Virus record (IMG/VR): IMGVR_UViG_3300042892_004472
Coordinates: 1-46,391 of that record
Length of the DNA stretch: 46,391 nucleotides
Reading direction: 5' to 3' (one strand)
Origin: a virus
The position numbers and the translations under genes are program-made. The notes beneath the pieces were generated by a model that was not told where the DNA came from, ran no database searches, and saw only the letters and a program-made list of their open reading frames with translations. Below, in pieces: positions 2,212 through 26,062 of this stretch. How positions within the stretch are numbered: the first letter of the stretch is position 1; every line of letters begins with the position of its first letter.

Positions 2212-2534
2212 TCGGCTCGTGAGCTCATGTATGCAGTGATGCCATGCGACTTAAGGACCTCGGCATAGGCTCTGGCGCCGGTTTCTTTGATGTCCATGCT
2301 TTGCGTGAAGCTGCCACCGGGATTCCAAAGTTGGAGTCCACCGCCGTATGCTTTGGTAAAGCCCACAGTTTTCAGCGCACGACCCAATTTGGTACTGGCC
2401 TTTTCGTGTACGCTGACCCAGGCAAAACCACAGTAACCAGGCTCGCCGTGTTGAGCACGGAAATCTGCTTCGGCTTGTTGTGCGGCGGCAACGGCAGTGT
2501 TATGGACGGATTCGATATTGTCTAGTGCGAACAT
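2208..2534 (-). CDS. conserved phage protein (108 aa)
   Basis: Ala/Glu-rich N-terminal helix (residues ~5-30), then 'GYCGFAWVSV' and 'GGGLQLWNPGG' segments and a C-terminal 'YAEVLKSHGI' helix. This layout matches a widespread uncharacterised small phage protein. AAGGAG stands ~8 nt before the ATG. Single gene between two cassette promoters; its stop codon is part of the downstream -35 element. Confidence 0.75.
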   Translation of the reverse strand: MFALDNIESVHNTAVAAAQQAEADFRAQHGEPGYCGFAWVSVHEKASTKLGRALKTVGFTKAYGGGLQLWNPGGSFTQSMDIKETGARAYAEVLKSHGITAYMSSRAD

Positions 2535-2564
2535 TCGGGACTCCTTGTTGCTGTTTAAGTGTTA

Positions 2565-2593
2565 ATTATAGCAGAACGGGAATTATTGGTCAA
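2565..2593 (-). promoter_or_regulatory. cassette promoter (TTGACC-17-TATAAT)
   Basis: -35 TTGACC (2588-2593), 17-bp spacer, -10 TATAAT (2565-2570), leader ending in AAGGAG. Drives the 108-aa gene. The end of the upstream 51-aa ORF runs through the -35 box. Confidence 0.85.
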
Positions 2594-2738
2594 CCAAATT
2601 CTGCGTCATCTTTTGTGCATTCATTGCACAGATTTCGCTCATGATCTTGAGAATTTTGATGGTGTTGGCCGCTGTGGCCTGGCCAGATTCCAGTACTTCC
2701 ACCGCAGTTTTCAAATAATTCAAATGTTGAACAGTCAT
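2583..2738 (-). CDS. small helical protein (51 aa)
   Basis: ATG 2738, stop TAA 2585-2583; 51 aa (MTVQHLNYLKTAVEVLESGQ...NLVDQ), predicted almost all helix. Chosen over an alternative frame giving a 96-aa ORF, because this frame has normal amphipathic helices and a start 5 nt after the stop of the upstream small gene. An AAGAG sequence is upstream. Its 3' end reads through the downstream promoter. Confidence 0.6.
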   Translation of the reverse strand: MTVQHLNYLKTAVEVLESGQATAANTIKILKIMSEICAMNAQKMTQNLVDQ

Positions 2739-2743
2739 AATGG

Positions 2744-2896
2744 TTACTCTTGAAATTGTCGAACATGTTTGACTCGTCGAGTGTACGCCACTCGTGACTG
2801 TTCAACACGGGGTTTGAACGGTGTGTCGCGGCTGTACAGTTCCACAGCTCGGCGCCGCTGACGCGGTAGTTGTATAACAAAGGATACAGTTTTCAT
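2744..2896 (-). CDS. basic 50-aa protein with ArfA-like C-terminus
   Basis: ATG 2896-2894, 5 nt after the previous stop, 50 aa. Highly basic. Residues ~17-44 (AVELYSRDTPFKPRVEQ then VAYTRRVKH) resemble the core of ArfA, whose family signature is helix, D-P-x-F-x-x-R-V-E, then a basic YxRKxKH ribosome-binding tail. ArfA rescues ribosomes stalled on mRNAs without a stop by recruiting RF2. The match is by eye and the KGKGS segment of ArfA is shortened here, so the call is tentative; a nucleic-acid-binding peptide is the alternative. Confidence 0.5.
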   Translation of the reverse strand: MKTVSFVIQLPRQRRRAVELYSRDTPFKPRVEQSRVAYTRRVKHVRQFQE

Positions 2897-2903
2897 AATA
2901 GTC

Positions 2904-3119
2904 TCAACCAAATTCTGCGTAGATTTCTTGTTCCACTTCGCGATTCAGCGCCGCAGCCAATTCCTGGGCCTGTTCCCAACCGTCAGCGGTGGGGTCAAAT
3001 TCGGCGCGGATATCGCTGGTGCGATTGCCCTCACCGTCGTCTGACAGCACTTCCGTTACCAGCCAGCTGGAAGATGCTACATCTTCACCACGATAAAACC
3101 GAACTTGAAACTGGCTCAT
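2904..3119 (-). CDS. small conserved phage protein (71 aa)
   Basis: MSQFQVRFYRGEDVASSSWLV... 71 aa, acidic; an early beta-hairpin and a C-terminal helix (WEQAQELAAALNREVEQEI). Preceded by AGGAG and the cassette promoter at 3150-3178. Ends AEFG-stop. No function recognised. Confidence 0.7.
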   Translation of the reverse strand: MSQFQVRFYRGEDVASSSWLVTEVLSDDGEGNRTSDIRAEFDPTADGWEQAQELAAALNREVEQEIYAEFG

Positions 3120-3149
3120 TTGCGACTCCTGTTTGCTGTTTATGTGTAT

Positions 3150-3178
3150 ATTATAGCAGATTGGTGAATAATGGTCAA
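3150..3178 (-). promoter_or_regulatory. cassette promoter (TTGACC-17-TATAAT)
   Basis: -35 TTGACC (3173-3178), 17-bp spacer, -10 TATAAT (3150-3155), leader ATACACATAAACAGCAAACAGGAG. The stop codon of the upstream 52-aa gene (TGA, 3177-3175) lies in the -35 box. Confidence 0.85.
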
Positions 3179-3333
3179 CCGTTGGTCAACTCACGCAATT
3201 TTTCAGCTATAGCAGCCTGCTTGATAAAAATGCTGCCACCGTAACGACCGTTACAGCTGATAAGAGTCAGCCACTCGTACTCGGCTGTCAAACGCTCGAT
3301 CTCTGCTGCCTTCTGTTCTGGTGTCATCTGCAT
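3175..3333 (-). CDS. small protein (52 aa)
   Basis: ATG 3333 with GGAG 5 nt upstream; 52 aa (MQMTPEQKAAEIERLTAEYE...), helix, short turn 'CNGRYGGS', helix. Single-gene cassette between two promoters. No function recognised. Confidence 0.65.
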   Translation of the reverse strand: MQMTPEQKAAEIERLTAEYEWLTLISCNGRYGGSIFIKQAAIAEKLRELTNG

Positions 3334-3361
3334 GTCTGCTCCGTTTGCTGTTTATGTGTAT

Positions 3362-3390
3362 ATTATAGCAAAACGGGAATTAATGGTCAA
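3362..3390 (-). promoter_or_regulatory. cassette promoter (TTGACC-17-TATAAT)
   Basis: -35 TTGACC (3385-3390), 17-bp spacer, -10 TATAAT (3362-3367). Drives the 52-aa gene. The TGA of the 213-aa gene (3389-3387) is embedded in the -35 box. Confidence 0.85.
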
Positions 3391-4028
3391 CCAGGTTCGT
3401 TTTTTGCATCTATGGAGTAAAACCAGTCATCTCCTGCTGACCACTTGCGTGTGCCATCCACTGTGAATATGGTCTGTGCGGCTTTAAAGTCTGGGAATTT
3501 GGTCACACCTGAGATCAAACTCTGATCATACCACAAGCATCGGTTGTTGGGCTGGCAAGCAAACTGCCCGTTTTCCAATCGAATAAAATTAAACGATTTG
3601 TGCTCTTCGGCCACTTCAGTAAAGCCGGTGTCCACATCCATGCCGTCAGCACAGAAGTCCACAGTGAACAGGTAGGTGCCGTAGTGCCACTGCCGATCCT
3701 TGCCCAGAAACTTCACACCCAGATTACGCAGACCAATTTTTTCAATGATAGTAAAACGATAACCCATGCAGTCCCAGAGTTGCAGGGTGTCTATGGGCAA
3801 TGTGCCTGTGTAGTTTTCTTGCCATACATAGGCATGGATCGGCAGTTTGTCGTAGAGTGCTCCGTAGTTGGGCAGTAAACTTTCAATACGAAACACCTGG
3901 CCTCTTAGTGCTTTGATACTGACCCAGATGGCTGGTTCCAGTTCGCCATGACCTTTTTCAAAGTTGTAGAGAAATTCTCGTTTTACCCAGCACTTGATGG
4001 GCGGTAGTGATCCTACTATGTAACTCAT
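3387..4028 (-). CDS. conserved phage protein (213 aa)
   Basis: Mixed alpha/beta soluble protein starting MSYIVGSLPPIKCWVKREFL, with a 'HAYVWQENYTG...LWDCMGYRF' centre and a C-terminal 'WSAGDDWFYSID' segment. I recognise it as a conserved gene of T4-like aquatic phages without assigned function. Start overlaps the preceding membrane-peptide stop (ATGA). Confidence 0.75.
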   Translation of the reverse strand: MSYIVGSLPPIKCWVKREFLYNFEKGHGELEPAIWVSIKALRGQVFRIESLLPNYGALYDKLPIHAYVWQENYTGTLPIDTLQLWDCMGYRFTIIEKIGLRNLGVKFLGKDRQWHYGTYLFTVDFCADGMDVDTGFTEVAEEHKSFNFIRLENGQFACQPNNRCLWYDQSLISGVTKFPDFKAAQTIFTVDGTRKWSAGDDWFYSIDAKNEPG

Positions 4029-12757: not shown

Positions 12758-13056
12758 TTCTGCAACAGGTATCGGATCAAGCCGACACCATCGATCACAA
12801 CCAGGAACACGGAATTGGCCATCAAGCCAAAACTCCGTCTGGTCCAACATGCCCAGGCGCTGGCAAAACAGCCTGCAATAAAAATCGTATACAGTGGCAC
12901 CACTGGAATATTGGGCACAGTGGCTGCAAACATCACAGCAGAAACTACGCTGCAAGCCCAGGCAAATACTTCTGTACAAAAACGCACACGATTGCTGGCC
13001 CAGTCAGTACGAATATACTGACGCACACTGCCGACTGCTTTTGAAATAAAATTCAT
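12754..13056 (-). CDS. conserved phage membrane protein (100 aa)
   Basis: About three hydrophobic segments (~28-48, 51-68, 77-95). The 'GSVRQYIRTDWASNRVRF' start and 'WTRRSFGLMANSVFLVVIDGVGLIRY' end are conserved in cyanophage-like T4-type phages. Function unknown; inner-membrane location expected. Immediately follows uvdE. Confidence 0.75.
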   Translation of the reverse strand: MNFISKAVGSVRQYIRTDWASNRVRFCTEVFAWACSVVSAVMFAATVPNIPVVPLYTIFIAGCFASAWACWTRRSFGLMANSVFLVVIDGVGLIRYLLQN

Positions 13057-14087
13057 TACGCCAATCCCAGTTCAACAGCACGACGATAAACTTGTTCACT
13101 GGCTAAATTTTTGCCTTTGGATTCGCACTGTATATCAAACTGACCCCAAAAGGTCAAAGCCCAGTCAGTCACTGACTGATTCCAATAAAAATCACTGTGT
13201 GCTCGCATCTTTTGTTTTTTGTAGCCGGCCTCTAACAACTCAGCATGATCCGGAATGATATCAGTAGGATGATCCACCAGCACATCTTCACGACTCACAC
13301 TGTAATGCAGTGCAGGTCTAACACCACGCCAACTGTCAACTATGCCTTTGACCCTATCGTCAGTGGCCTGGATGTATTCTCCTGTGCGAATCCAATGATG
13401 GTGTATGTCCAACACAAGGGCACAGTCTTGGGCCAGTTCAAGGCTTGAGTCAATGCCCCAGGCGTTTTCATCGTTTTCGATTGTGATCGAACTTCTTGCT
13501 TCAGGTGAAAGTCGTTTGAGTGCATCTCGAATACCGGCTGGCCCGCGTTTGCCTGAGATGTGTACATTGATCTTAAAGTCCTGGAAGGTTCGGCCATAGC
13601 CCATCCAACGCACCATGTCTGCATGATATTCGAATTCTTCTATACTGCGTTCTACAATGCCGGGATTCTCACTTGCCAACACGCAAAACTGTCCAGGATG
13701 GAAGCTGAGTCTAACATCCAGTCTACGAGCAGTTTCACCAATGGGTGCAAATATACGAGCCAGATGATCCTGTATCTCTGGCTGTTGCCACCAGGCCTTC
13801 CAACTGGGTTCAGTGTAGCCTTGCAACATTTCTGATCCTAGCCGCACCATTCTGCGATTGGCCGGCAGTGTGGCCACACGCTCGATCATTCGCACAGCAG
13901 CAGCAGTGTTATGATTCATGATATCCCACTGGCGCTGTTCAGCTTCGGCAGGATGTTCGCGCAGCCAGCGCATGGTGGTTGATCGGCCGTTTAGTTCACG
14001 GTCCACAGCATTGACTTTCATGCCGCCGCATTCGGACGGATCATTGAGCCATTTGCAACAGAAACCAATACGCTTTAGTGTAGTCAT
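13056..14087 (-). CDS. uvsE: UV damage endonuclease UvdE/UvsE
   Basis: TIM-barrel UV endonuclease, 343 aa from ATG 14087. Family landmarks: IGFCCKW start, LSFHPGQFCVLASENP, EFEYHADM, INVHISGKRG, SITIENDEN, ALVLDIHHHW, which contain the His/Glu/Asp metal ligands. The enzyme nicks 5' of UV photoproducts, an alternative to T4 DenV. ATG 14087 is preferred because the strong promoter TTGACA-17-TACAAT ends only 7 nt upstream; longer frames to 14123 would start inside the promoter. The mRNA is therefore expected to be almost leaderless. Confidence 0.9.
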   Translation of the reverse strand: MTTLKRIGFCCKWLNDPSECGGMKVNAVDRELNGRSTTMRWLREHPAEAEQRQWDIMNHNTAAAVRMIERVATLPANRRMVRLGSEMLQGYTEPSWKAWWQQPEIQDHLARIFAPIGETARRLDVRLSFHPGQFCVLASENPGIVERSIEEFEYHADMVRWMGYGRTFQDFKINVHISGKRGPAGIRDALKRLSPEARSSITIENDENAWGIDSSLELAQDCALVLDIHHHWIRTGEYIQATDDRVKGIVDSWRGVRPALHYSVSREDVLVDHPTDIIPDHAELLEAGYKKQKMRAHSDFYWNQSVTDWALTFWGQFDIQCESKGKNLASEQVYRRAVELGLA

Positions 14088-14094
14088 ACAGAGT

Positions 14095-14123
14095 ATTGTA
14101 CACTGATCATTGGACATTGTCAA
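14095..14123 (-). promoter_or_regulatory. uvsE promoter (TTGACA-17-TACAAT)
   Basis: -35 TTGACA (14118-14123), 17-bp spacer, -10 TACAAT (14095-14100). The start codon begins 7 nt downstream, leaving no room for a ribosome site. The -35 overlaps the end of the upstream 186-aa gene. Confidence 0.75.
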
Positions 14124-20032: not shown

Positions 20033-21034
20033 ATGAACAAACTATTAGCTATTTTACTGGCGGCCATAACTGTCACAGCTCACGCAGACATCACTGGCGC
20101 AGGCGCAACATTCCCCTATCCCATCTATGCCAAGTGGGCAGAAGCCTACAAGAAAGAAACAGGCATTGGACTCAACTATCAGTCAATTGGCAGTTCAGGC
20201 GGTATCAGACAAATCAATGCCAAGACCGTGACATTTGGTGCCACTGACGCACCTGTTGCCGGCGCCGAACTAGACAAAAATGCTCAGGTTCAATTCCCAG
20301 CTATCATTGGCGGCACAGTGCCCATTGTGAACTTGGACGGATTCCAACCAGGCGAACTGCGCATCACTGGACCAGTACTGGCCGAAGTGTTCATGGGTGA
20401 TATCACTCGTTGGAACGACGCCAAACTGGCAGCCCTGAATCCTGGTAAGAAATTGCCCGATCAACCAATCACAGTGGTGCATCGTGCTGACGGTTCAGGC
20501 ACAACATTCAATTTCACTGACTACCTGGCTGCTGTCAGCCCCGACTGGAGCAAGCGTATGGGTCGTGGTGCAGCAATCAAATGGCCCGCAGCCAGCAGCA
20601 TTGGTGGCAAAGGCAACGAAGGTGTTGCAGCCAATGTGAATCGTGCCAAGGGCAGCATTGGTTATGTAGAGTATGCTTATGTAAAGAAGAACCGGATGAC
20701 ATTCCTGCAACTGCAAAACAAGGCAGGCAAGTTTGTGAGTCCCGATGACGTGACATTTGCAGCCGCTGCCGCAGGTGCTGATTGGTTCAGTGTGCCAGGC
20801 ATGGGCGTGAGCATTGTGGATCAAAAAGGTGACGCTACATGGCCAATAACCACTGCCAGCTTTATCATCATGTACAAAAATCCTGAGGACAAAAAGGCTT
20901 CAGCTGACGTACTAAAGTTTTTTGACTGGGCATTCCGCAATGGCAAGAAGGATGCTGCTGACCTTGACTATGTGTCATTGCCAGACAGCTTGACTCGACA
21001 AATTCGTGAACGAGTTTGGACACAAATCAAATAA
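20033..21034 (+). CDS. pstS: PstS, phosphate ABC-transporter substrate-binding protein
   Basis: 333 aa with signal peptide MNKLLAILLAAITVTAHA and mature start DITGAGATFPYPIY. Phosphate-binding loops present: GAGATFP, SIGSSGG, FGATDAP, HRADGSGTTFNFTDYL. PstS captures phosphate in the periplasm and hands it to the host PstCAB importer; none of those are encoded nearby, so the phage protein must use host PstCAB. pstS is a known auxiliary metabolic gene of cyanophages. Controlled by its own Pho-box-like site. AAGGAAC lies before the ATG, and a terminator follows at 21081. Confidence 0.95.
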   Translation: MNKLLAILLAAITVTAHADITGAGATFPYPIYAKWAEAYKKETGIGLNYQSIGSSGGIRQINAKTVTFGATDAPVAGAELDKNAQVQFPAIIGGTVPIVNLDGFQPGELRITGPVLAEVFMGDITRWNDAKLAALNPGKKLPDQPITVVHRADGSGTTFNFTDYLAAVSPDWSKRMGRGAAIKWPAASSIGGKGNEGVAANVNRAKGSIGYVEYAYVKKNRMTFLQLQNKAGKFVSPDDVTFAAAAAGADWFSVPGMGVSIVDQKGDATWPITTASFIIMYKNPEDKKASADVLKFFDWAFRNGKKDAADLDYVSLPDSLTRQIRERVWTQIK

Positions 21035-21102: not shown

Positions 21103-21147
21103 TTGGCAAATGATTCTTTCCCGATCCTATTAATTTTGTTAATTGCA

Positions 21148-21180
21148 GTCATTGATTTTTATTCAGTAAAAATCAATGAC
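21148..21180. repeat. 14-bp perfect inverted repeat upstream of the ahp promoter
   Basis: GTCATTGATTTTTA (21148-21161), loop TTCAG, exact complement (21167-21180). It ends 6 bp before the -35 box of the ahp promoter. No T run follows, so an operator or activator site is as likely as a terminator. Confidence 0.6.
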
Positions 21181-21185
21181 GCGGC

Positions 21186-21214
21186 TTGACTTTACAGCTA
21201 TATACTATTACAAT
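21186..21214 (+). promoter_or_regulatory. ahp operon promoter (TTGACT-17-TACAAT)
   Basis: -35 TTGACT (21186-21191), 17-bp spacer, -10 TACAAT (21209-21214). The transcript would begin near a small hairpin ACTCAGT/ACTGAGT (21219-21225/21232-21238), a 5'-end stem that could stabilise the mRNA. Confidence 0.75.
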
Positions 21215-21262
21215 AAACACTCAGTACTAACACTGAGTACCATTTTTAACAAGGAACAAATT

Positions 21263-21817
21263 ATGAAAACAGTTGGCGATAAATTGACAGCATTTGCTGT
21301 AACTGGTGTGAACCCAGGCAAGGATGATTTCTTTAGCATTACGGACAAGAGTTTTGAAGGCAAGTGGAAAGTGATTGTGTACTATCCCAAGGACTTTACA
21401 TTTGTGTGCCCCACAGAGATTGTGGCCTATGACAAACTGTTCCAGGACTTTGCTGACCGTGATGCAGTCCTGCTCACCGGTAGCACAGACAATGAGTTCT
21501 GCAAACTGGCCTGGCAGCGTAGCCATGAAGATCTGAGCAAGATCCGGCACATTCAGTTTGCTGACACTGCTCGTCATCAACCCGGTGAAGAGCGCGGTGG
21601 TGTAAGCCTGATTGAACAGCTGGGCGTGTTCTACGCTCCAGCCGGTGCTGCACTTCGTGCCACATTCATTGTGGACCCAGACAATGTTATTCAACATGTA
21701 ACAGTTAACAACTTGAATGTGGGTCGTAGCCCAGACGAAACACTGCGTGTGTTGGATGCACTGCAAACTGGCGAGCTGTGTGCATGTAACCGTACTGTAG
21801 GCGGCGAAACACTTTAA
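21263..21817 (+). CDS. ahpC: AhpC peroxiredoxin
   Basis: 184 aa from ATG 21263 (AAGGAAC upstream); longer frames to 21176 would start before the promoter. Peroxidatic Cys49 in FTFVCPTE; resolving Cys173 and Cys175 in LCACN. The CxC pair near the C-terminus is the arrangement of mycobacterial-type AhpC, which is reduced by AhpD rather than AhpF. Reduces H2O2, alkyl hydroperoxides and peroxynitrite in the cytoplasm. ahpD is two genes downstream in the same operon. Confidence 0.93.
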   Translation: MKTVGDKLTAFAVTGVNPGKDDFFSITDKSFEGKWKVIVYYPKDFTFVCPTEIVAYDKLFQDFADRDAVLLTGSTDNEFCKLAWQRSHEDLSKIRHIQFADTARHQPGEERGGVSLIEQLGVFYAPAGAALRATFIVDPDNVIQHVTVNNLNVGRSPDETLRVLDALQTGELCACNRTVGGETL

Positions 21818-21828
21818 TCGGAAAACAA

Positions 21829-22230
21829 ATGTTGGATTGTTTGATCATCGGGGATAGTATTGCTGTGGGAACCAAAATGTTCCGTCCAGATTGTGCAGAC
21901 TATGCACAAGGTGGAATTACCAGTCACGGTTGGAACAAGAAGTTTGGTAACAACAAGCTGTCTGCCAATAGTGTAATCATTAGTCTCAGCACCAACGATT
22001 GGGAAAAAGCAGATACCTATGGCATGTTGATGAATATTCGTACCAAGGTAATTTCTGAACGAGTTTATTGGATTTTGCCTAACGAAGAATCTAAACCCGA
22101 TGCTGTCAAACATGTCCGTCGTGTGGCAGCACAATTTAACGATACAATCATCCCAACTACAAGATGGCAGAAAGATAAGATCCATCCTAGTTGGGCTGGT
22201 TACAAAAATATTGCGGAGAAAACAAAATGA
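21829..22230 (+). CDS. SGNH/GDSL-type hydrolase (133 aa)
   Basis: Short SGNH hydrolase: Ser10 in IIGDSIAVG, Gly in QGGITSHGW, Asn56 in LSTNDW and Asp116/His119 in KIHPSWAGY give the block I, II, III and V residues. These enzymes deacylate esters, acyl-glycans or lipids. At 133 aa it is small for the family (usually 180-250). Located between ahpC and ahpD; its stop overlaps the ahpD ATG. A link to peroxidised lipid esters is speculative. Confidence 0.75.
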   Translation: MLDCLIIGDSIAVGTKMFRPDCADYAQGGITSHGWNKKFGNNKLSANSVIISLSTNDWEKADTYGMLMNIRTKVISERVYWILPNEESKPDAVKHVRRVAAQFNDTIIPTTRWQKDKIHPSWAGYKNIAEKTK

Positions 22231-22733
22231 GTTTTATTGATACAGTAAAAGGTGCGTTACCGGACTATGCCAAGGACACCAAGTTAAATCTTGATGCTGT
22301 TCTACTGCGTAGCACATTAGATGCTGATGTAGCCGTGGGTTGTGCTGTGGCCGCATTGGCCGCAACAGGCAACGGTAAAGTATTAAGCATTCTATTAGCA
22401 GATGGTCCAGTACATGCTGAGTCAGCAATGACAGCCGCAAGTATTATGGCACAGAACAATGTATGGTATCCTTATGTTGAGATGGCTGATGATCCTGCGC
22501 TAAAAGGCCTACCAGCACAGTTACGCATGAACGCAATTACTAGCCATGGTAGCACTACCAAGTCAAACTTTGAAGCATTCAGTCTTGCTGCCAGCATTGT
22601 GGGCAAGTGTCACTTCTGCGTGAAAGCACACTACGACACACTCAAGACAGAAGGCTACTCAGTGGAACAGCTTCGTGACATTGGTCGTATTGCCAGTGTA
22701 ATAAATTCGGTTGCAAAAGTGTTAAACAGTTGA
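22227..22733 (+). CDS. ahpD: AhpD alkylhydroperoxidase
   Basis: 168 aa from ATG 22227, overlapping the previous stop (ATGA). Active-site layout Glu116...Cys128-x-x-Cys131...His135 (GKCHFCVKAH) matches AhpD of Mycobacterium (E118, C130, C133, H137) residue for residue in spacing. AhpD transfers electrons from dihydrolipoyl proteins to AhpC and has weak peroxidase activity of its own. With ahpC it forms an apparently complete peroxide-reducing pair. Confidence 0.88.
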   Translation: MSFIDTVKGALPDYAKDTKLNLDAVLLRSTLDADVAVGCAVAALAATGNGKVLSILLADGPVHAESAMTAASIMAQNNVWYPYVEMADDPALKGLPAQLRMNAITSHGSTTKSNFEAFSLAASIVGKCHFCVKAHYDTLKTEGYSVEQLRDIGRIASVINSVAKVLNS

Positions 22734-22837: not shown

Positions 22838-22872
22838 ACAAAAGGCTTGATAGAGCGATAAGTAAGGATATG

Positions 22873-23757
22873 ATGTCCAAAACTTATCGCTCTATTTTTA
22901 TATCCGACGTGCATTTGGGCACACGAGACTGTCAGGCCGGCAAGTTAAACAACTTTCTCAAACACAACACCTGCGAAACACTCTACATGGTGGGCGACAT
23001 ACTGGATGTGTGGCGCATACAACAAAACCGTTGGCGCTGGAAACAAAGCCATACCAATGTGGTTCGTCGTATCTTGGGTCATGCCAAGCGCGGCACCAGA
23101 GTGATCTATGTAGCTGGCAATCACGATGAATTCCTAAGACCATTGATGCCATATGGCATTAACTTTGGCAATGTGGAAATCGTAAATCAATTTGAACATA
23201 TTGGCATAGATACCAAACATTACCTGGTCACACACGGTGACTTGTTTGATGGCATCACACGTCTAGCGCCCTGGATTGCTTTCTTGGGCGACAAAGCCTA
23301 TGACTTTGTTCTTGGACTCAACAGTAAATTTAATTGGATTCGTCACCGCATGGGTTTTGGGTACTTTAGCCTTAGCAAGTTTCTTAAGCACAAGGTCAAA
23401 AAAGCAGTGGACTTTATTTTTCAATTTGAAAAGAATCTAGCAACCTACTGCAACAAGCGTGGCTATGATGGTGTGATCTGCGGTCATATTCACCACGCTG
23501 AGATAAAACTAATAGACGGCATTGTGTACATGAATGATGGCGACTGGGTAGAAAGTTGTACCGCGCTGGTAGAGCACCACACCGGCCAGTGGGAAATTGT
23601 GACTTGGACCAAGGAGAGTGACGATGTGGATCTTGATACTGATAGCAACACACATAAACGATCACGCCGATCAACCGGGACGAATAGAGATACAGTTTCC
23701 CACCCAACAGAGTTGCGAGCAAGCTCTAAACACTCTCAAGTGGCAGCTGAAGTTTAA
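22873..23757 (+). CDS. plcP: PlcP, phospholipase C of the LpxH-like metallophosphoesterase family
   Basis: Metallophosphoesterase with all ligand motifs: SDVHLG (12-17), VGDILD (41-46), GNHDE (83-87), THGD (121-124), CGHIHHA (204-210), then NDGDWVESCTALVEHH (222-237); numbering counts from the upstream ATG 22870. This last block and the FLxHxxCETLYMVGDI...W phrase are typical of PlcP, which hydrolyses phosphatidylglycerol/ethanolamine to diacylglycerol in phosphate-starved bacteria, rather than of true LpxH. ATG 22873 is preferred (AAGGA 4 nt upstream); 22870 is possible. Residues beyond ~250 form an unusual Arg/Ser/Thr tail because another ORF is read in the next frame. A Pho-box-like site precedes it and agt follows. 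Confidence 0.87.
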   Translation: MSKTYRSIFISDVHLGTRDCQAGKLNNFLKHNTCETLYMVGDILDVWRIQQNRWRWKQSHTNVVRRILGHAKRGTRVIYVAGNHDEFLRPLMPYGINFGNVEIVNQFEHIGIDTKHYLVTHGDLFDGITRLAPWIAFLGDKAYDFVLGLNSKFNWIRHRMGFGYFSLSKFLKHKVKKAVDFIFQFEKNLATYCNKRGYDGVICGHIHHAEIKLIDGIVYMNDGDWVESCTALVEHHTGQWEIVTWTKESDDVDLDTDSNTHKRSRRSTGTNRDTVSHPTELRASSKHSQVAAEV

Positions 23758-23800
23758 AAATTTCAAGGTATTGAGCGAATGCAAAAAACAATCCTTATAG
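23624..23800 (+). CDS. 58-aa membrane/exported peptide overprinted on plcP and agt
   Basis: ATG 23624 has a perfect AAGGAG (23611-23616) at 7 nt. The product MWILILIATHINDHADQPGR... has an N-terminal hydrophobic segment, one Cys in 'QSCEQAL' and a second near the end (SECKK), the pattern of the small 'MW-hydrophobic, two Cys' phage proteins. It overlaps the last 134 bp of plcP in another frame and the first 22 bp of agt. The odd plcP tail is probably a by-product of this overlap. Confidence 0.6.
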   Translation: MWILILIATHINDHADQPGRIEIQFPTQQSCEQALNTLKWQLKFKNFKVLSECKKQSL

Positions 23801-24786
23801 TCACAGACAACCTATATGACCAAATCAATGGTGTGGTTACGACCTACAAGAATATTGAGGCGTGTGCGATTCGCGACAACTATCGTGTTGTATATCTTGA
23901 TCCCGGGCGGTTCCGCTATGTTGATTGCCCTGGCTACAACGAAGTCAAGATTGCCTTTCCCCGGAAGGTGGGCGCGATACTTGAGGAGATCCGTCCGGAT
24001 TATATCCACATCGCCACCGAGGGTCCTGTGGGTCTGTGTGTTAGACAATATCTTGACAAACACGGTTATCGCTATAATACTGCTTATCATACTAAGTTTC
24101 CAGAAGGACTTAAAAAACTATTTGGAATTCCTGAAGCCCTTACTTGGCCTCTAGTGCGCTGGTTTCACAAGCATTCGGGCAAGGTGTTGACCACCACAGA
24201 GTCCATGGTTCAAGAACTTCGAGCACATGGATTTGACGGTGATATTGTTCCCTGGACCCGTGGAGTTGATCGTGACATATTCACCCCTGAATCTAGAGAA
24301 CCACACCAGGGCACTGTGCTGGTCTGTGTGTCAAGAGTCAGCAAAGAAAAGAACCTAGACATATTTTGCGGCCTAGACTATCCGGGTGCAAAGAAAATCC
24401 TAGTGGGCGATGGACCTTATCGAGCAGAACTTCAGGCAAGATATCCTGATGTTGAGTTTGTGGGCTTCAAACGGGGAATGGCGTTGGCCTGGTACTATGC
24501 CAATGCTGATGTGTTTGTGTTTCCCAGCCGCTGGGAAACTTTTGGTATTGTGATGATTGAGGCCATGGCCTGCGGTACGCCAGTGGCAGCTTATCCTTGC
24601 CAAGGACCCGAAGATGTTGTGGAGCCTGGAGTTACTGGTTGCCTCAATGAAGATCTATCGCAGGCCATAACAGACTGTTTGGCCCTGGACAGAAACACAG
24701 TTCTCAAAGGCAGCCGTCGTTGGAGTTGGGAACAGGCCTGGATCATATTCCGCGACAACTTAGTAGAAGCCAGGCATAAAGACTAA
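23779..24786 (+). CDS. agt: Agt-type GT4 glycosyltransferase (glycolipid synthase)
   Basis: 335 aa, GT-B fold. N-terminal 'QINGVVTTYKNIE', 'DYIHIATEGPVGL' and 'NTAYHTKFPE' are landmarks of diacylglycerol glycosyltransferases in the Agt/MgdA-like group; the C-terminal domain has CVSRVSKEKN (R186, K189, K191), VGDGPY and the E-x7-E motif E253...E261 in WETFGIVMIEAMACG. Known Agt proteins glycosylate diacylglycerol with glucose or glucuronate. Immediately downstream of plcP, as in the bacterial plcP-agt operons. Stops 3 bp before the convergent desaturase stop. Confidence 0.85.
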   Translation: MQKTILIVTDNLYDQINGVVTTYKNIEACAIRDNYRVVYLDPGRFRYVDCPGYNEVKIAFPRKVGAILEEIRPDYIHIATEGPVGLCVRQYLDKHGYRYNTAYHTKFPEGLKKLFGIPEALTWPLVRWFHKHSGKVLTTTESMVQELRAHGFDGDIVPWTRGVDRDIFTPESREPHQGTVLVCVSRVSKEKNLDIFCGLDYPGAKKILVGDGPYRAELQARYPDVEFVGFKRGMALAWYYANADVFVFPSRWETFGIVMIEAMACGTPVAAYPCQGPEDVVEPGVTGCLNEDLSQAITDCLALDRNTVLKGSRRWSWEQAWIIFRDNLVEARHKD

Positions 24787-24788
24787 AC

Positions 24789-25514
24789 TCAAACTGAACT
24801 TTGCGGCTGTCTTGTGGTCACAGTTGCTAGTCCCACTGAGTTAAGTATAGTAATATACATCCATCCTATGTCAAATTCAAACCAGCGCCGGCTCAGTTGA
24901 GGGTTAGCAGGATCCAAATGATGGTTGTTATGAAGACACTCCCCACCAATAATAATACCCCAAGGCATAATGTTTCTACTGTGATCTTTAGTTTTGCCAT
25001 TTCTATATCCTATCCAATGTCCTACTCCGTTGATCACACCTGCGGCCCAAAAAGGTATCCAGATCATTTGTATGCCCCAAATCAACGGCCCCCACCAGCC
25101 AAACACCGCTAGGTTGAACACAAAGAGAATGCCAATGCCAAGTCTACTGTGAGCAGTGTATATGTTGCGCTCCACCCAATCAGCAGGAGTACCAACGCCG
25201 TATGAATCAACCATGACTTTATCTTTGCTTGCTGCATGATATAACATTGCTCCTCGAAATAACACACGCCAAATGCCATACACATGTGGTGTATGCGGAT
25301 CACCTTCTTGATCACTAAATCTATGATGCTTGCGATGTATTGCAACCCATTGTTTGGTGACCATGCCTGTGGTCAGCCATAGCCAAAAACGCATAGCATG
25401 CGCAACTACAGGATGAAAAATCACGCCACGATGTGCTTGGCTACGGTGCAAAAACAAAGTCACGCACACTATGGTAATGTGCGTGACTATCAAGGTGTAA
25501 ATTAAATATGTCAT
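24789..25514 (-). CDS. membrane fatty-acid desaturase (delta-9 type)
   Basis: 241 aa from ATG 25514 (overlapping the upstream TAA as TAATG). The three His boxes are present: HRSQAH (23-28), HRKHH (60-64), HNNHH (195-199), plus GHWIGYRN and four hydrophobic segments. This matches the SCD/DesC-type di-iron desaturases that insert a double bond in acyl-CoA or acyl-lipid chains. It lies convergent with agt and last in a minus-strand cluster of membrane proteins. It could adjust membrane fluidity while phospholipids are replaced. Confidence 0.9.
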   Translation of the reverse strand: MTYLIYTLIVTHITIVCVTLFLHRSQAHRGVIFHPVVAHAMRFWLWLTTGMVTKQWVAIHRKHHRFSDQEGDPHTPHVYGIWRVLFRGAMLYHAASKDKVMVDSYGVGTPADWVERNIYTAHSRLGIGILFVFNLAVFGWWGPLIWGIQMIWIPFWAAGVINGVGHWIGYRNGKTKDHSRNIMPWGIIIGGECLHNNHHLDPANPQLSRRWFEFDIGWMYITILNSVGLATVTTRQPQSSV

Positions 25515-26062
25515 TACATACTTAGTGGAGCCCACAGCCATAGGCCTTGACTCATGAGCACCAGACCTAGTGCGCCTACTCCTATTGATCCCCAGTACAT
25601 TCGCATGTTAACTGTTAAAATACTGGCAGATAACAGCACAATAGCCAGTTGAAACAGCATGCCTGAAAAGTTCAGCCACGGACTATGTAGTCTAGCTTCA
25701 TCTCTTGCAGCTTCTTGTGCTCGTGCTTTGACCAATAACTCTTTCTTGCCTTCGCCTGTGTCAGGTTCAGATTCGTAGCGATCAATCTTGGCCTGCAGTT
25801 TTTCCATGCGTTCTTTGTTGCCGACCAGGCGGGCTTCTTCCAGTTGTCCTTCGGCTAGAGTTTGTTTGATACTTTTGGACTGATAGAATCCGTAGGTGTT
25901 AGATGCCTTCAGCAGATTGGTTTGCGCTACACTGCTGAAGTTGTTGGCAATATAGGTGTTGGCTGCTAGGAATAGGGCCATGAAAACAATTACTAAGCCT
26001 GCTTTGTCTTTGATTTGTGCCTCACGCTCAGATCGTGAAAGGGGTTTCTTTTCTTCAGTCAT
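25514..26062 (-). CDS. DUF4337-like membrane protein (182 aa)
   Basis: One N-terminal membrane helix (GLVIVFMALFLAANTYIA), the 'NTYGFYQSKSIKQ' motif typical of DUF4337, a charged coiled coil (residues ~75-125), then two C-terminal helices. Function unknown in bacteria and phages. Translationally coupled to the desaturase; ATG preceded by AAGGAG. Confidence 0.75.
   Translation of the reverse strand: MTEEKKPLSRSEREAQIKDKAGLVIVFMALFLAANTYIANNFSSVAQTNLLKASNTYGFYQSKSIKQTLAEGQLEEARLVGNKERMEKLQAKIDRYESEPDTGEGKKELLVKARAQEAARDEARLHSPWLNFSGMLFQLAIVLLSASILTVNMRMYWGSIGVGALGLVLMSQGLWLWAPLSM

Follow-up and report, generated by a model that had tools for sequence, protein, structure and literature searches.

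The closest described counterpart of the genes reported here is the AhpC-AhpD pair of Burkholderia thailandensis, in which a three-cysteine AhpC (C57/C171/C173) is reduced by AhpD (CxxC at C131/C134) with SucB, Lpd and NADH, and in which OxyR binds and represses the ahpC promoter (PMC6626918). The AhpC and AhpD proteins of Mycobacterium tuberculosis (2bmx, 1gu9) provide a second point of comparison. A phage peroxiredoxin is encoded by prxU of Microcystis phage MaAM05, although no isolated-phage record contains AhpD. The open-licence PMC papers searched yielded no description of AhpC-AhpD as a phage gene pair and nothing relevant on phage genes driven by OxyR. Cyanophage pstS, which is controlled by host PhoB, is an example of a phage auxiliary metabolic gene under a host stress regulator. 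The operon described below likewise combines host-derived metabolic genes with a candidate host-type regulatory site; here, however, the signal and regulator are peroxide and OxyR, and predicted, rather than phosphate and PhoB.

We find the ahpC-ahpD pair of large uncultivated phages to be genuine and conserved, an auxiliary gene pair whose chemistry is known. We consider it likely that large T4-like phages captured a Burkholderiales-type ahpC-ahpD operon and kept it as an auxiliary metabolic pair, powered by host lipoyl proteins and, in many members, possibly tuned by host OxyR, with the SGNH hydrolase gene seen between the two genes here being a passenger. The window (the whole stretch of 46,391 bases analysed, identical with the virus record) has phage-type gene packing, and ahpC, the SGNH gene and ahpD form a single operon on this viral contig, with catalytic residues intact in all three (Table 1). 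The tetranucleotide ATGA (22227-22230) is common to the end of the SGNH gene and the start of ahpD, while an 11-nt gap separates ahpC from the SGNH gene. Thus the overlapping codons described in an earlier note on this DNA exist on the ahpD side and not on the ahpC side.

Table 1. Features of the ahpC-ahpD operon and its control region in the window
Feature	Position	Strand	Remarks
Perfect 14-bp inverted repeat, 5-nt loop	21148-21161/21167-21180		Right arm overlaps the OxyR-like half-site
Candidate degenerate OxyR-type half-operator	21163-21177	+	TCAG-N7-CAAT (TCAGTAAAAATCAAT); then, 16 nt on, ACAG at 21194-21197
Sigma-70-type promoter	21186-21214	+	TTGACT-17-TACAAT; 10/12 match; same layout before ahpC in relatives
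Hairpin	21219-21238	+	ACTCAGT-ACTAAC-ACTGAGT; close to where the mRNA is expected to start
ahpC	21263-21817	+	2-Cys peroxiredoxin, 184 aa; ATG at 21263, stop at 21815-21817; peroxidatic C49, resolving C173/C175
SGNH hydrolase gene	21829-22230	+	133 aa; GDS, G, ND and DxxH blocks; S10, G29, N56, D116, H119; apparent passenger gene
ahpD	22227-22733	+	168 aa; predicted CxxC reductase of AhpC; E116, C128, C131, H135

The window AhpC matches Pfam AhpC-TSA (1.6e-19), reads FTFVCPTE around C49 and has the C-terminal CxC pair reported earlier (CAC, the two resolving cysteines); its three-cysteine architecture is that of the B. thailandensis protein. Its score against the NCBIfam AhpC equivalog TIGR03137 is 109.8 bits, under the cut-off of 272, and it is therefore filed only as an AhpC/TSA-family protein of Burkholderiales type. 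In contrast to Burkholderia AhpC, the phage protein has no NNHEENG loop, and its residues 103-115 form a hypervariable insertion. The insertion is a loop that differs in length among loci, with at least 76% conservation over the rest of phage AhpC, and is absent from the aligned bacterial homologues. The window AhpD matches Pfam CMD (6e-8, within the cut-off) and scores 115.7 bits against the NCBIfam ahpD subfamily TIGR00777, under the cut-off of 191.95; its CxxC pair corresponds to that of B. thailandensis AhpD.

For both proteins the best PDB sequence match is the M. tuberculosis homologue, with the same fold and catalytic residue spacing, and the predicted AhpD model superimposes on 1gu9 with Z 24.1 and rmsd 1.6 over 162 residues. 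The mycobacterial active site E118/C130/C133/H137 becomes E116/C128/C131/H135 in the phage enzyme, a spacing correctly recognised in the earlier note; CSHC is replaced by CHFC, with F130 in place of H132. Still, identity to the mycobacterial AhpD is ∼35%, versus 48-55% for AhpD of Burkholderiales. The label 'mycobacterial-type' thus fits mechanism and residue spacing, but not nearest relatives.

The nearest cellular relatives are ahpC-ahpD operons of Burkholderiales (AhpC 59-66% identity), in which ahpC adjoins ahpD, as it often does in the phages, with no SGNH gene in the gap. Among the best 80 cellular AhpD loci all are from Burkholderiales but one, and close AhpD occurs in only three of 299 sampled Pseudomonadota genomes, the other matches being far. 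The single exception (L163, labelled as a Bacteroidota MAG) carries AhpD together with an AhpC of phage type (86%), and we take it for a phage contig that was probably misbinned in the genome collection. In the AhpD tree the phage sequences and L163 fall into one set that neighbours Burkholderiales (support 91), and in the AhpC tree the phage sequences make one group (SH-aLRT 86). A mycobacterial donor is rejected in view of the Burkholderiales best relatives and the AhpD tree. Phylogeny, which had been proposed as the way to locate the donor, points to an ancient transfer from a line that probably belonged to Burkholderiales or was closely related to them; no genus is named by the trees. The phage version of the pair differs from that of Burkholderia in being phage-borne and in that its two genes are frequently coupled stop to start or have passengers between them.

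A scan of IMG/VR detected AhpD relatives in at least 591 stretches and AhpC relatives in at least 598. Among 50,697 isolated-phage records there was no AhpD, and AhpC matches were distant only (all <60% identity; 28-32% for full-length ones). The pair is, therefore, common in uncultivated phages and absent from isolated ones, and the earlier statement that such pairs are rare in phages holds for isolates but not for uncultivated viruses, with at least 590 IMG/VR contigs. The related loci were sampled as the best 80 per query, so counts from them are lower bounds and the samples lean to close relatives. Both genes were present in 78 of 80 AhpD-selected and 77 of 80 AhpC-selected loci, the exceptions lying near contig ends; at 119 distinct loci ahpC and ahpD are on the same strand and close together, abutting in 46. 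Pairing of the two genes is obligate. The catalytic cysteines C49, C173 and C175 are invariant in 114 distinct viral AhpC sequences, and E116, C128, C131 and H135 in 113 distinct viral AhpD sequences. Median dN/dS is ∼0.07 for AhpC and 0.07 for AhpD (0.23 for the SGNH protein); AhpC and AhpD are under strong purifying selection.

Each of 13 large pair-bearing contigs (156-358 kb) has a single AhpD, and 10 of them have a T4-type Gp23 capsid gene. Contigs with Gp23 near that of one carrier were considered as further carriers, and AhpD was missing from all 13 (51-303 kb, possibly fragments); the trait looks patchy. A relation to pmoC-phages was considered as well and rejected: AmoC/PmoC was not found in the 13 large contigs in a search made with no positive control, and the pmoC-phage paper does not mention AhpC. 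In the window itself no capsid gene was recognised, while PAAR, DNA ligase, NrdB, glutaredoxin and ClpP-like genes match phage families.

A function of the pair in peroxide defence, as the earlier note proposed, is supported by the invariant catalytic residues, the obligate pairing and the purifying selection. During infection C49 of AhpC would reduce H2O2 and organic hydroperoxides and then form a disulfide with C173/C175; the CxxC motif of AhpD would re-reduce AhpC, drawing electrons from host lipoyl proteins (SucB/Lpd, NADH). Homology to the B. thailandensis pair predicts the same reactions for the phage proteins, with SucB/Lpd supplied by the host. The host is the predicted electron source because, unlike in the Burkholderia system, the 13 large phage contigs showed no gene for an Lpd-type flavoprotein; nor did they show a catalase gene. 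The infected cell would be protected until lysis, with peroxide-sensitive phage enzymes (the diiron ribonucleotide reductase, for example) probably shielded, and host respiration too.

Upstream regions of phage ahpC have a common layout: an AT-rich block, a sigma-70-type promoter, a hairpin and a ribosome-binding site. The promoter that the earlier note called strong is present in the window and its layout recurs in relatives, but in a simple scan promoter-like matches were no commoner than in shuffles of the region (three found versus 3.8 expected). Stems of at least 7 bp occur in 25% of 118 phage ahpC upstreams versus 4% of dinucleotide shuffles; arm sequences vary among relatives, with pairing kept. 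The same hairpin module is found at a few other phage genes, and another 5'-end hairpin behind a sigma-70-type promoter lies on the minus strand of the window, downstream of 31176. The 14-bp inverted repeat was also correctly noted before the operon; it is the only perfect inverted repeat of at least 14 bp (loop 3-10) in the window and sits upstream of the -35 box at 21186. As a conserved operator it was rejected because relatives, L080 and L083 among them, do not preserve the full palindrome.

The AT-rich block resembles an OxyR operator. In Burkholderiales, ahpC upstreams have [T/A]TAG-N7-CTAT ∼16 nt before ATAG and a -10 box, and the layout common to phage and Burkholderiales ahpC promoters is [A/T]TAG-N7-C[T/A]AT - N15/16 - ATAG - TATA box; like Burkholderiales, many of the phages have a candidate OxyR-type site upstream of ahpC. 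A hand score, devised after viewing both the phage and the Burkholderiales sets, reached at least 16 in 42% of the phage ahpC upstreams (n = 120) and in 76% of those from Burkholderiales (n = 75), against 3% of other intergenic regions of the phages (n = 236). A PWM trained on Burkholderiales alone told phage ahpC upstreams apart from the other phage intergenic regions (AUC 0.75). As the upstream sequences are related, p-values are not given as probabilities. The site in the window differs by one element base from the TTAG-N7-CAAT form of Bordetella and Achromobacter loci and has a hand score of 16; the Burkholderiales-trained PWM places it no higher than the 77th percentile of the control intergenic regions of phages (best 37-mer at 21141). 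This predicted OxyR-like site is degenerate and suggestive only, and for this reason we infer OxyR control at clade level. The 13 large phage contigs showed no LysR-family/OxyR gene, in which respect they again differ from the Burkholderia system, so any regulator would be the host's. Given a candidate operator arranged like that of Burkholderiales ahpC promoters, host OxyR probably tunes ahpC expression to peroxide in many members of the clade. Since OxyR represses ahpC in B. thailandensis (PMC6626918), the direction of this control in the phage operon is uncertain.

The SGNH protein of the window matches Pfam Lipase_GDSL_2 at 6.6e-4 (20.7 bits, below the gathering score of 32.9), and 27 of 28 SGNH members match this family at E 0.01 or better. 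Its AlphaFold model (pLDDT 96.4) has the SGNH fold, and residues G8, D9, S10, G29, N56, D116 and H119 (blocks I GDS, II G, III N and V DxxH) are invariant in 54 distinct sequences. The closest PDB structures are the OatA catalytic domain (TM 0.71) and a mannan acetyl-esterase, which are O-acetyl-sugar enzymes rather than lipid-peroxide esterases; the tie to oxidised lipids suggested in the earlier note is not borne out. A multi-copy SGNH family in these genomes was considered and discarded, as the six of 13 large contigs having the gene carry one copy each.

The ahpC-ahpD gap accommodates more than 20 other gene families (e.g. at loci L003, L004, L014, L031, L086, L091, L098, L105, L119 and L142), nearly all in the operon direction. 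They include class II aldolase-like, SHMT, TerC-like, BI-1-like, GIY-YIG-like, cysteine-desulfurase-like, IMPDH-like and alternative oxidase genes; the alternative oxidase and class II aldolase inserts are confirmed by Pfam and the others were named by eye. The junction is an insertion hotspot, a docking site for genes of which SGNH is the commonest passenger. In L004 a phage-borne alternative oxidase gene (∼2836-3447, Pfam AOX 9.7e-76) stands between ahpC and ahpD. In the gap of L098 (∼2420-3270) we discerned by eye a truncated ahpD remnant, then a GIY-YIG-like endonuclease gene, then the intact ahpD, an order that suggests endonuclease-driven insertion and replacement.

Would AhpC, the SGNH protein and AhpD work as one functional module, in which the SGNH enzyme would hydrolyse peroxidised acyl esters or assist the peroxidase in some other way? 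The SGNH gene occupies the gap at 35 of 119 distinct loci and lies elsewhere nearby, within the fetched stretch, at more, which is above chance for genomes of ∼345 kb; it also overlaps ahpD translationally and keeps its catalytic residues. Yet seven of the 13 large contigs showed no SGNH gene, and in two of the other six the gene is far from ahpCD. Of 79 newly fetched SGNH loci, 59 had no ahpC match in the fetched stretch (some stretches being short) and 20 had one. On the trees of 118 loci the SGNH-in-gap state changed at least 26 times (AhpC) and at least 19 times (AhpD). In Mantel tests SGNH gave r 0.11 with both AhpC and AhpD, a modest contrast given an r of only 0.31 between AhpC and AhpD; recombination is therefore general. 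Single loci show the same discordance: SGNH is close (90%) and AhpD distant (66%) in L161, and AhpD is close (94%) and SGNH distant (43%) in L002. With the O-acetyl-sugar neighbours of the fold, the many unrelated genes using the same gap (among them aldolase-like, AOX, SHMT, IMPDH and TerC-like genes) and the Burkholderiales operons having no SGNH gene there, we regard the module as quite improbable. The joint role proposed earlier is rejected against the co-occurrence counts, the state changes and the Mantel test, and the tempting picture of an SGNH esterase working with the peroxidase is corrected. By these comparisons the SGNH sequence history is largely independent of AhpC and AhpD, and the SGNH gene is best described as a mobile passenger, not a functional partner, one of many that would enter and leave the junction; since it lies near ahpCD more often than by chance, a weak functional link may exist. 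It is hardly credible that the contigs are misbinned bacterial DNA instead of viral. The genes are of bacterial origin and the window has no recognised capsid gene, but the Gp23 genes of the large relatives, the window genes matching phage families, the phage-like packing and the separate phage group in the AhpC tree all speak against it.

Another reading concerns the upstream element, which could be a phage-specific AT-rich promoter module merely resembling an OxyR site. The window copy is weak, the strict core [A/T]TAG-N7-CTAT is missing from 58 of 81 thinned phage ahpC upstreams, and the hairpin module at other phage genes makes part of the region generic. However, the core is present in the remaining 23 (28%) versus one of 213 (0.5%) other phage intergenic regions and 1.1% of same-composition shuffles, and the spacing to the ATAG/-10 element is the same as in bacteria. 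A generic module has a substantial chance of being the right answer, though well short of even. It is rather unlikely that the pair serves mainly in anti-defence, neutralising a host oxidative burst or ROS-mediated abortive infection instead of general peroxide housekeeping; in favour of this is the promoter with its 5' hairpin, and the OxyR-like operator of the clade would respond to infection-triggered peroxide. Returning to the captured, host-powered operon, host OxyR would adjust its expression to peroxide in members with the operator. We put forward only tentatively the fuller picture of a phage peroxidase operon wired to a host sensor, in which OxyR would read peroxide at infection time and switch AhpC-AhpD, keeping the cell alive until lysis, while the junction would dock passenger genes, including SGNH, under a stress-responsive promoter.

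Control by OxyR is the most interesting point of the finding: if host OxyR drives the operon, phage success would be linked to environmental and respiratory peroxide. The presence of ahpCD in hundreds of uncultivated viral contigs under strong selection implies that peroxide limits infection of the hosts, which are probably Burkholderiales-like and aquatic.

Several other genes of the window deserve mention. The operon is flanked (20033-21034 and 22870-25541) by genes for PstS, an LpxH-like metallophosphoesterase, a GT4 glycosyltransferase and a DesA-type desaturase; several of these recur near ahpCD in relatives, i.e. they belong to an auxiliary-gene island. Two ClpP-like proteases and one ClpX-like ATPase are encoded in this one phage fragment (5793-6443, 8096-8671 and 31714-32922), and a gene for the UV-damage endonuclease UvdE is found at 13056-14123 (Pfam 1.2e-31). 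Finally, the gene at 3387-4028 encodes a protein of unknown family (MSYIVGSLPPIKCW...), and members of the same family are inserted between ahpC and ahpD at about nine loci.
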